A DNA stretch of 21,754 bases from the IMG/VR virus record IMGVR_UViG_3300020733_000088, positions 1 through 21,754 of that record, one strand, 5' to 3'. Shown in pieces: positions 1 to 1,493 of the stretch (position 1 is the first letter of the stretch; each line of letters starts with the position of its first letter). The notes below the pieces were generated by a model that was not told the DNA's origin, did no database searches, and worked only from the letters and a program-made list of their open reading frames with translations. The translations under genes were made by a program, and so were the position numbers. This DNA is from a virus.

Positions 1-265
1 GCTCGATAGTAGATACAACCCAAACGATGCACTCGTTCCCGTTTTCATTCGTGCGGGTCTTGCCGGAATCGTAGATCAACCCGTCTTTAAGCAACTTGCC
101 CCGAGTTGGGCGCAGGGTATCGCCACTCATCTTGAGAACAGACTGCATCTCTTGATCGGTAGCTCCGCGCTCCATGCAATCAACTAGGTACTGATATACG
201 CGAGCGCGCTTTTCACTCATGCGAGGCGCGGCCTTGATCTGCGCTTGAATAGATGTAGCTCTCAT
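1..265 (-). CDS. Winged-helix DNA-binding protein, 3' end outside window
   Basis: Starts at an ATG that overlaps the TGA of the upstream gene (ATGA junction), so translation is coupled. About 88 residues are visible and the frame is still open at the left edge. The visible part reads as a compact winged-helix fold: a helix with KRARVYQYLVDCMERGATDQ, a recognition-type helix around SGDTLRPTRGKLLKDGLI, then a wing ending in the hydrophobic strand CIVWVV. The pattern of a 'GATDxE' helix, an 'R-x-L-x-x-x-G-L-I' turn and a C-terminal IVW strand is common in small actinophage winged-helix proteins. The target site is unknown. It could be a transcriptional regulator or a replication accessory protein. 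Confidence 0.7.
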   Translation of the reverse strand, partial: MRATSIQAQIKAAPRMSEKRARVYQYLVDCMERGATDQEMQSVLKMSGDTLRPTRGKLLKDGLIYDSGKTRTNENGNECIVWVVSTIE

Positions 266-513
266 CGCTGACCTAGCGCAATCTGCGCGCAGAGATCCTG
301 CACCTGTAAAAGTGAGTTCTCTAGCCCATTCTTCACAATCTGCTTACGGCGCGTTGTAAGATCAAGAGCGCAAATCTCTTCGTAAATCTCAAGGCGAACT
401 CGGGCTTGAATAGCCTTAACCATCTTCTCAACTGCTTCTTGACCTTCAGGAGTATCAAGCACCAACTTCGTGCCATTGATCTTCCAATGGTTTTCTTTAC
501 AAATAACTTTCAT
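262..513 (-). CDS. Hypothetical protein, 83 aa
   Basis: Not recognised. I chose the ATG at 513, giving MKVICKENHW, because an AAAGG ribosome-binding site lies 7 bases upstream; a longer reading from TTG at 531 would put the start before that site. The protein opens with a short beta-like stretch (KVICKENHWKINGTKLVLDT), followed by a long charged, probably helical region (EGQEAVEKMVKAIQARVRLE and onwards). No membrane segment or metal-binding cysteine pair is present. It overlaps the end of the small membrane gene upstream by 17 bases and is coupled by ATGA to the winged-helix gene downstream, so it is clearly part of the early operon. Confidence 0.65.
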   Translation of the reverse strand: MKVICKENHWKINGTKLVLDTPEGQEAVEKMVKAIQARVRLEIYEEICALDLTTRRKQIVKNGLENSLLQVQDLCAQIALGQR

Positions 514-598
514 CAGTAAGCCTTTCTTCAAGCATAAATACGAGTTGTAAGAATCCTAGCCCCACTACTGGAATCACGATAAAAAAGAATACAAGCAT
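497..598 (-). CDS. Small single-span membrane protein, 33 aa
   Basis: Short reading frame MLVFFFIVIPVVGLGFLQLV..., with residues 1-22 forming one strongly hydrophobic span followed by an acidic tail (EERLTDESYL). Its ATG follows directly after the TAA of the upstream gene, and its end overlaps the next gene by 17 bases, which fits a translationally coupled gene rather than chance. An AAAGG/GGTAGG stretch upstream could serve as ribosome-binding site. Tiny membrane proteins in phage early operons often act on host membrane functions or exclusion, but nothing here shows a specific role. Confidence 0.5.
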   Translation of the reverse strand: MLVFFFIVIPVVGLGFLQLVFMLEERLTDESYL

Positions 599-820
599 TT
601 ATGCACCTACCTTTTCTATAATTTTATTAAAAGGAATCCACTCGGTAACATCTCCAAAACGCCTTGGGTTTGGTACTGCTCTAACAGCAAATGTATCTGC
701 ATCAAGATATTCAACCTCAGCATTGTAGTTGCCAACTTTGACAACTCTTACAGGTACAGTCACAGTTCTAAAAAATTTAATATTATAAATTGCGCCGACT
801 TCTACATTTTTCTTTTGCAT
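599..820 (-). CDS. Hypothetical small beta-rich protein, 73 aa
   Basis: Not recognised by family. The sequence alternates hydrophobic and polar residues in several short strands (GAIYNIKFF, VPVRVVKVGNYNAEVEYL, TFAVRAV), followed by a basic turn (NPRRFGD) and a short C-terminal segment, suggesting a small beta-barrel of SH3/KOW type. Its ATG overlaps the TAA of the zinc-knuckle gene upstream (TAATG), so the two are coupled. It resembles in general layout the 63-residue protein at 1490-1681, but no clear sequence relation could be established by eye. Confidence 0.6.
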   Translation of the reverse strand: MQKKNVEVGAIYNIKFFRTVTVPVRVVKVGNYNAEVEYLDADTFAVRAVPNPRRFGDVTEWIPFNKIIEKVGA

Positions 821-957
821 TATGCAATCACCTCTGAGCAGTCATCGCAGAAAACTCCGCTTTGAATTTCAATCGCTTTTGCCTGAGTTGGATCTCCGCA
901 AGCGCAATCGTTGCAAAAGACTCCACCATCTATCTTGTTTGTATATGCAGTAATCAT
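820..957 (-). CDS. Small double zinc-knuckle protein, 45 aa
   Basis: A 45-residue protein with two similar cysteine units: GGVFCNDC near residue 11 and SGVFCDDC near residue 33, plus one extra Cys (CAC) after the first. The paired CxxC units predict one bound zinc. A strong ribosome-binding site (GGAGG, 7 bases before ATG) decides the start, and the stop overlaps the next start as TAATG. It is the first gene downstream of the SOS-box region at 1069-1090 and would be the first product of a promoter there. Function unknown; zinc ribbons this small usually bind nucleic acid or protein partners. Confidence 0.7.
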   Translation of the reverse strand: MITAYTNKIDGGVFCNDCACGDPTQAKAIEIQSGVFCDDCSEVIA

Positions 958-1068
958 TTCTTGCCTCCAGTTGCTTCGGGGTCGTTCGCCCCTAACAAGA
1001 AGAACGATACGCCCACTCAGGGCTAAAGGGAAGGCTATTTGGCAAGTTTTTTACTTTGTTACCAAATC

Positions 1069-1074
1069 GTTATA
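1069..1074 (-). promoter_or_regulatory. Possible -10 element (TATAAC) overlapping a dyad
   Basis: On the minus strand TATAAC lies 3 bases downstream of the SOS box and about 110 bases before the zinc-knuckle gene. No good -35 hexamer is visible at 16-18 bases. It lies in a 13-base dyad (TCGTT-ATA-AACGA, 1067-1079) that runs into the SOS box. The support is mainly position. Confidence 0.35.
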
Positions 1075-1076
1075 AA

Positions 1077-1090
1077 CGAACAGATGTTCT
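1077..1090. promoter_or_regulatory. Candidate LexA/SOS box
   Basis: The 14-mer CGAACAGATGTTCT matches the Gram-positive and actinobacterial SOS box CGAAC-N4-GTTCG at 9 of 10 fixed positions, with a perfect GAACA/TGTTC dyad. It lies between the end of rusA and the next leftward gene. It sits just upstream of a TATAAC hexamer (1069-1074 on the minus strand), so a bound repressor would block that possible promoter. The region 958-1100 holds no gene. Confidence 0.6.
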
Positions 1091-1100
1091 AATTTGCCCC

Positions 1101-1493
1101 TTATAAGCAATCAAATTCTGAATAAGGAAATACCTCAATCGTTACTTTGTGTTGATTTCCGTAATTTTTAGTAGCTTCAACCGCTATAACCTGTGAGTCA
1201 TCCTCGTAGCAAATGCCTGTAAGTGAATCAAAAACAGCTCTGATATTTTTATCAATGTCGGGTGGGGTAGTTGGATATTCCCTTTTAACTGTTTTTGGTC
1301 GAGCAAATTGAAATCTTATTCTCATACCAACTGGCCCATCTATAAGAGTGGCTCCCGCTTCTTTAGCCTTGAGAGCAAGCATTGACCGATAAACTGCTAA
1401 TTCTGATCCCTTACTGTGGATGACATGACCGTTAATAACTTTCATGGATCCCTGGCTTACAGGTTTGATGCCCTCCAGTTCAAACTTAATCAC
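1101..1493 (-). CDS. rusA: RusA-type Holliday junction resolvase, 130 aa
   Basis: RusA is a dimeric, magnesium-dependent endonuclease that cuts Holliday junctions and branched DNA; phages use it to clear recombination and packaging intermediates. The family signature is clear: PDIDKNIRAVFDSLTG at about residues 78-93, carrying Asp79, Asp81 and Asp89, followed by YEDDSQV (Asp98/Asp99) and a terminal beta strand. An N-terminal QGSMK motif near residue 14 and the length (about 120-140 in the family) also fit. Translation begins at GTG, overlapping the upstream stop as GTGA. It sits in the same operon as the annealing protein and Cas4-like nuclease, which supports a role in phage recombination. 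Confidence 0.93.
   Translation of the reverse strand: MIKFELEGIKPVSQGSMKVINGHVIHSKGSELAVYRSMLALKAKEAGATLIDGPVGMRIRFQFARPKTVKREYPTTPPDIDKNIRAVFDSLTGICYEDDSQVIAVEATKNYGNQHKVTIEVFPYSEFDCL

Follow-up and report, generated by a model that had tools for sequence, protein, structure and literature searches.

The window, i.e. the whole stretch of DNA analyzed here, is a virus record of 21,754 bases in which nearly all genes are directed leftward. Read from the right, it contains capsid and tail genes, followed by genes for an exonuclease, WhiB, a methyltransferase, a replication protein and a RusA-type resolvase, then a gap of 143 bases and a run of small genes that reaches the left edge. The first-pass annotation had placed a dyad resembling an SOS box in a gene-free gap of this length, and the gap was located at 958-1100, between the rusA-type gene and the first of the small genes, both on the minus strand (Table 1). 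That first gene changes from phage to phage, as if it occupied a slot for variable cargo. Defence families were looked for in the operon behind the SOS box and none was found. WhiB-like genes occur in 48 of the 61 family loci, and the WhiB gene in the window points to an actinobacterial host. From WhiB, the G+C content and the habitat, we infer that the virus infects a Nanopelagicales-like actinobacterium.

Table 1. Positions of the control elements and neighbouring genes in the window
Feature	Position	Strand	Remarks
rusA-type Holliday junction resolvase	1101..1493	-	upstream neighbour; outside the switch
Candidate LexA operator (SOS box) CGAACAGATGTTCT; minus strand AGAACATCTGTTCG	1077..1090	.	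only exact dyad in the window; 20.1 bits; in 25/25 loci of the same rusA type
Tandem box TTATAACGATTTGGTAAC = RTAAC-N6-RTAAC	1058..1075	-	one base from the SOS box; repeats span 1058-1073; includes TATAAC (1069-1074)
Promoter-like pair, -35 TTCCCT (1032-1027), 17 bases, -10 TATCGT (1009-1004)	1004..1032	-	conserved alignment position
Leader hairpin, loop (G/A)AACG	970..998	-	ahead of the ribosome site; stem sequence changes among relatives, loop kept
First gene behind the SOS box, 45 aa, zinc-ribbon-like	820..957	-	matches below Pfam cut-offs
Second operon gene, 73 aa, no family	599..820	-	
Third operon gene, 89 aa, no family	262..531	-	kept in relatives G006 and G021
Fourth operon gene, phrog_1123, function not known	2..265	-	runs off the window

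In the near-complete relative G006 (36.5 kb) all genes lie on one strand, and the box is followed by small genes and by genes for dNMP kinase, a transglycosylase-like protein, an HslV-type peptidase, HNH, SSB, a weakly excisionase-like HTH protein and the terminase. The peptidase, of the HslV/proteasome type (L067, 11767-12303), belongs to the early operon of this phage. The absence of a repressor or integrase from the window, remarked on in the first-pass annotation, held true and was extended to the relatives. Tyrosine integrase (PF00589) was not found in 24 records of the group, nor S24 peptidase (PF00717) or serine recombinase (PF00239) in 22, and 20 further records bearing the composite site described below gave one weak PF00589 match (1 of 44 overall). 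A search of 296 Nanopelagicales genomes for the capsid protein and of 201 for the exonuclease, run without a positive control, gave no match, i.e. no prophage was seen. An integrase or plasmid-type maintenance together with a repressor, the combination expected of a temperate phage, was found in none of the records searched; most of these are fragments, and missing lysogeny genes are therefore no proof of absence.

The SOS box and its counterparts in host and phage genomes

The window contains one exact GAAC-N4-GTTC, namely CGAACAGATGTTCT. The actinobacterial LexA motif is tCGAAC-N4-GNNCGa (PMC9380542), and the window site agrees with the palindrome tCGAAC-N4-GTTCGa except for one outer base. 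A 16S pattern led to Nanopelagicales genomes, and a LexA gene was present in 59 of 61 genomes of this order. It can be seen that in these hosts, first, lexA is preceded by two SOS boxes about 60 bases apart, and secondly, recA and the dnaE2 operon have one each. The host recA operator CGAACAGATGTTCG and the window site are identical but for one outer base. A scoring matrix was made from 38 host operators, which were chosen by the consensus CGAAC-N4-GTTCG with at most one mismatch for those near lexA. On this matrix the window box scored 20.1 bits, the host operators themselves 19.6-29.6 bits and the runner-up site in the window 2.9 bits, and none of 200 order-2 Markov simulated windows of equal length reached 20.1 bits. 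In the 1.5 Mb genome of IMCC19121, only four sites reached at least 18 bits, i.e. two at lexA and one each at dnaE2 and recA. The first-pass annotation had described the GAACA/TGTTC dyad as a near-consensus SOS box of the actinobacterial type, and this was borne out, for the same sequence and the same variants are found in the lexA, recA and dnaE2 operators of Nanopelagicales. Judged from these sequence comparisons, the dyad at 1077-1090 is almost certainly a LexA operator.

The lexA, recA and dnaE2 promoters of IMCC19121 (L301-L376) also carry a PafBC/ClgR-type element, TTGTCAGT-N8-TANNNT, with the LexA box just behind it. TACCTT had been considered as the -35 of the host recA promoter, and this was dropped because TACCTT is the -10 of the PafBC/ClgR-type promoter before the LexA box.

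The first-pass annotation had proposed to look for the dyad at the corresponding place in relatives. A search that used the replication protein as query brought in 58 related loci. Where RusA ends in FDC, the box lies directly behind the rusA stop without exception (25 of 25 loci; these include repeats of one contig and amount to about 15 distinct sequences), and none of the 19 loci with other RusA types has it. It is kept despite divergence of rusA to about 50% identity, and also in L042, L043 and L047, where another gene replaces rusA. Three loci differ in having CAAAC/GTTTG half-sites (L003, L004 and L021), a change shared with the second host lexA box. Across 570 kb of family loci, 27 sites of at least 15 bits were found, all of them at this place, and the matrix read backwards gave 0; whole contigs have as a rule one such dyad each.

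These data bear on two other explanations of the dyad. The site might act as an RNA hairpin, for example as a terminator of rusA, since it lies directly after the rusA stop and its arms change together in some relatives (AGAAC..GTTCT in L016, CAAAC..GTTTG in L021). However, the stem is short, no T run follows it in most relatives, the site is absent from the terminator-scan list, and it is kept where rusA is missing and before unrelated genes. A terminator after rusA was therefore rejected, and a role as RNA hairpin seems very improbable. A chance palindrome without function might also be considered, since the bare 8-base dyad is not rare alone (by our own estimate, under uniform composition, about 0.3 are expected per window, i.e. 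about one per three windows of this size). It is contradicted by the conservation in place, by the host-operator score and by the fixed spacing to a second motif in unrelated phages (see below), and is the least probable of all the explanations weighed here.

The tandem box and a putative promoter of the early operon

TATAAC, on the minus strand at 1074-1069, is two bases away from the 14-base SOS box. The composite GAACANNTGTTCGNTTATAAC, in which the SOS box is joined to TTATAAC, was found in 49 contigs, whereas the reversed pattern gave 2. Most of these contigs share no or few genes with the family of the window, and their G+C content ranges from 35 to 54%. In 28 of 31 distinct sequences a further RTAAC stands exactly six bases after TTATAAC, and in none at other spacings. 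When the spacing between box and repeat was left free, 32 distinct sequences fell at one gap and at most 5 at any other, and at the fixed gap the first repeat is ATAAC or GTAAC. The composite lies mostly in intergenic spacers ahead of runs of small genes; in several unrelated contigs it separates small early genes from the terminase and is divergent from the latter. About half of the window's own family has the SOS box without a direct tandem box, and the tandem box by itself was found in more than 119 viral contigs, most of which have no SOS box. No composite was found at 80% coverage in isolated or named phages and plasmids.

The more than 119 viral contigs just mentioned are from freshwater (L183-L261, e.g. 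L235, L184 and L256) and contain TTATAACNATTTGRTAAC, a widespread regulatory box that sometimes forms tandem arrays with an 11-base period. In L190, L206, L216 and L241 (about 38% G+C) the tandem box is flanked by the inverted repeats ACAAATCGGACAT ... ATGTCCGTTTTGT. One contig of 107 kb, L428, has two SOS/tandem composites, at 1008-1039 and 2649-2680.

The occurrence of the composite in contigs with few or no shared genes points to a common host factor. The dyad could also be the operator of a phage-encoded regulator that shares or imitates the specificity of LexA, for example in superinfection control. Relatives do encode small HTH proteins (e.g. G006, 31504-31668, weakly excisionase-like), phages keep the dyad, and a protein of their own would be inherited together with its site. 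This seems rather improbable, because the 22 records searched contain no S24/LexA-type repressor, the composite extends to contigs nearly or wholly unrelated to the family, and the half-site variants equal those of the host lexA. Host LexA is the more likely reader of the dyad.

The second half of the composite is probably the site of another host regulator, of the OmpR type (MtrA- or GlnR-like). Its period of 11 bases is that of sites for OmpR-type regulators. The nearest known sites, the Streptomyces MtrA box (GtnAcC-n5-GTnAcn as cited in PMC13189361) and GlnR-type boxes, are likewise direct repeats of GTnAC at an 11-base period, a pattern found at 1058-1073 as RTAAC-N6-RTAAC. MtrA is present in Nanopelagicales hosts, two of which share such boxes before amtB, glnA and argS, with an N6 count only slightly above that of other spacings. 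The host argS box has the same GATTYG spacer as the phage tandem box.

TATAAC had been taken in the first-pass annotation for part of a possible internal early promoter, and a reading of it as the -10 was not supported. First, no sigma-70-type promoter passed a consensus scan at 800-1200. Secondly, the base run varies between ATAAC and GTAAC in unrelated phages, and no consistent -35 is present where one would be needed. Because RTAAC-N6-RTAAC has a fixed spacing and begins with either ATAAC or GTAAC, TATAAC is more plausibly one half of the tandem box. The promoter-like pair is located downstream, at a distance of about 45 bases. In nearly all relatives a TANNNT with a TT-type -35 at 16-18 bases occupies the same alignment position, and the distance from the centre of the LexA box to the -10 is 74-76 bases in most lineages and 63-64 in three. 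TTCCCT-17-TATCGT is regarded as a putative promoter only, because it was picked knowing the alignment and is below the strict consensus scan. The transcript would then start near 997. The leader hairpin, which follows the pair at a constant place in nearly all family members, resembles a conserved RNA element, and it has no match in Rfam.

With such a start, the SOS box would lie near -87, further upstream than is usual where LexA blocks RNA polymerase directly. This unusual distance might indicate that LexA binds without repressing, either because many genome copies titrate LexA and so help SOS induction, or because LexA activates, as has been reported for Streptomyces mobaraensis (PMC11157053). 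There is, however, one site per contig, and the fixed spacing to the second regulator box, together with the place before the operon, argues for gene control rather than titration. Binding without repression is therefore considered unlikely, if the least so of the alternatives.

A proposed LexA switch and known systems

The site most likely serves to place the small zinc-ribbon gene and the genes behind it under the control of host LexA, and it is quite likely that this control is a repression of the early operon which lasts until SOS induction. In the undamaged cell, LexA would occupy the operator in the compact control region before the small early genes. There it would adjoin, and probably overlap, the space of an activator on RTAAC-N6-RTAAC, and it may keep the TTCCCT-17-TATCGT promoter low either directly or by excluding that activator. 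When RecA is activated, by damage or by the phage DNA itself, self-cleavage of LexA would free the operator and the operon would be transcribed. In Rhodococcus infected by phage WC1, SOS genes are up by 5 minutes (PMC10986025), which indicates that infection itself can trigger the SOS response. Self-repression of early genes is odd in a phage that shows no lysogeny genes. A wider reading is that the composite switch, common to many unrelated freshwater actinophages without a lysogeny module, ties the early operon to DNA damage and to a two-component signal, and so serves as a gate for lytic deferment in which no phage repressor is needed. We put this forward tentatively, as possible rather than probable.

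What is known of the use of host LexA by phages comes mainly from temperate ones of a few laboratory hosts. In the present case this signal is apparently read, through a composite site that recurs in unrelated genomes, by phages that show no lysogeny genes and whose hosts are among the most abundant bacteria of fresh water. Should LexA bind, the SOS state and damage by sunlight in lakes would directly affect when infection proceeds. Cultures now exist of Nanopelagicales and of phages that infect them (PMC10202952), which makes the idea of a LexA switch testable. No paper on LexA in phages of Nanopelagicales turned up in a literature search.

That phages use host LexA was already known; the novelty is that phages in which no lysogeny genes are seen share a composite operator. 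A close parallel is GIL01 of Bacillus thuringiensis, in which host LexA likewise acts on early genes through an SOS box (promoter P1, dinBox1/dinBox1b) and no prophage is integrated (PMC4551915, PMC9700832). GIL01, however, is a tectivirus of small size; in its temperate state it is a linear plasmid, and it depends on a gp7 of its own, whereas the present genomes are tailed and actinophage-like, with no gp7-like partner or temperate state known. A similar search in tectiviruses of Streptomyces gave no LexA site (PMC6950372). A host LexA operator in a phage promoter region is also found, as outlined in PMC9437464, in temperate phages with LexA-controlled antirepressor, co-repressor or lytic genes. 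In that outline the LexA sites serve prophage induction, while the family records searched here gave no S24 repressor, serine recombinase or tyrosine integrase. The same source mentions CtrA sites in phages of Alphaproteobacteria (lytic deferment) and Spo0A sites in phi29, in which a host master regulator is likewise read, at sites in phage promoter regions, by unrelated phages without lysogeny. In contrast to those cases, the regulator here would be the DNA-damage repressor LexA, its site is joined to a second motif, and deferment is hypothetical. Finally, the phage operator has the same sequence and half-site variants as the operators at the Nanopelagicales lexA, recA and dnaE2 promoters. 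The surroundings differ, since host SOS promoters have a PafBC/ClgR-type tTGTCRgtg-8-TannnT (consensus from PMC5656591) just before the LexA box, and the phage LexA box is instead followed by the tandem box.
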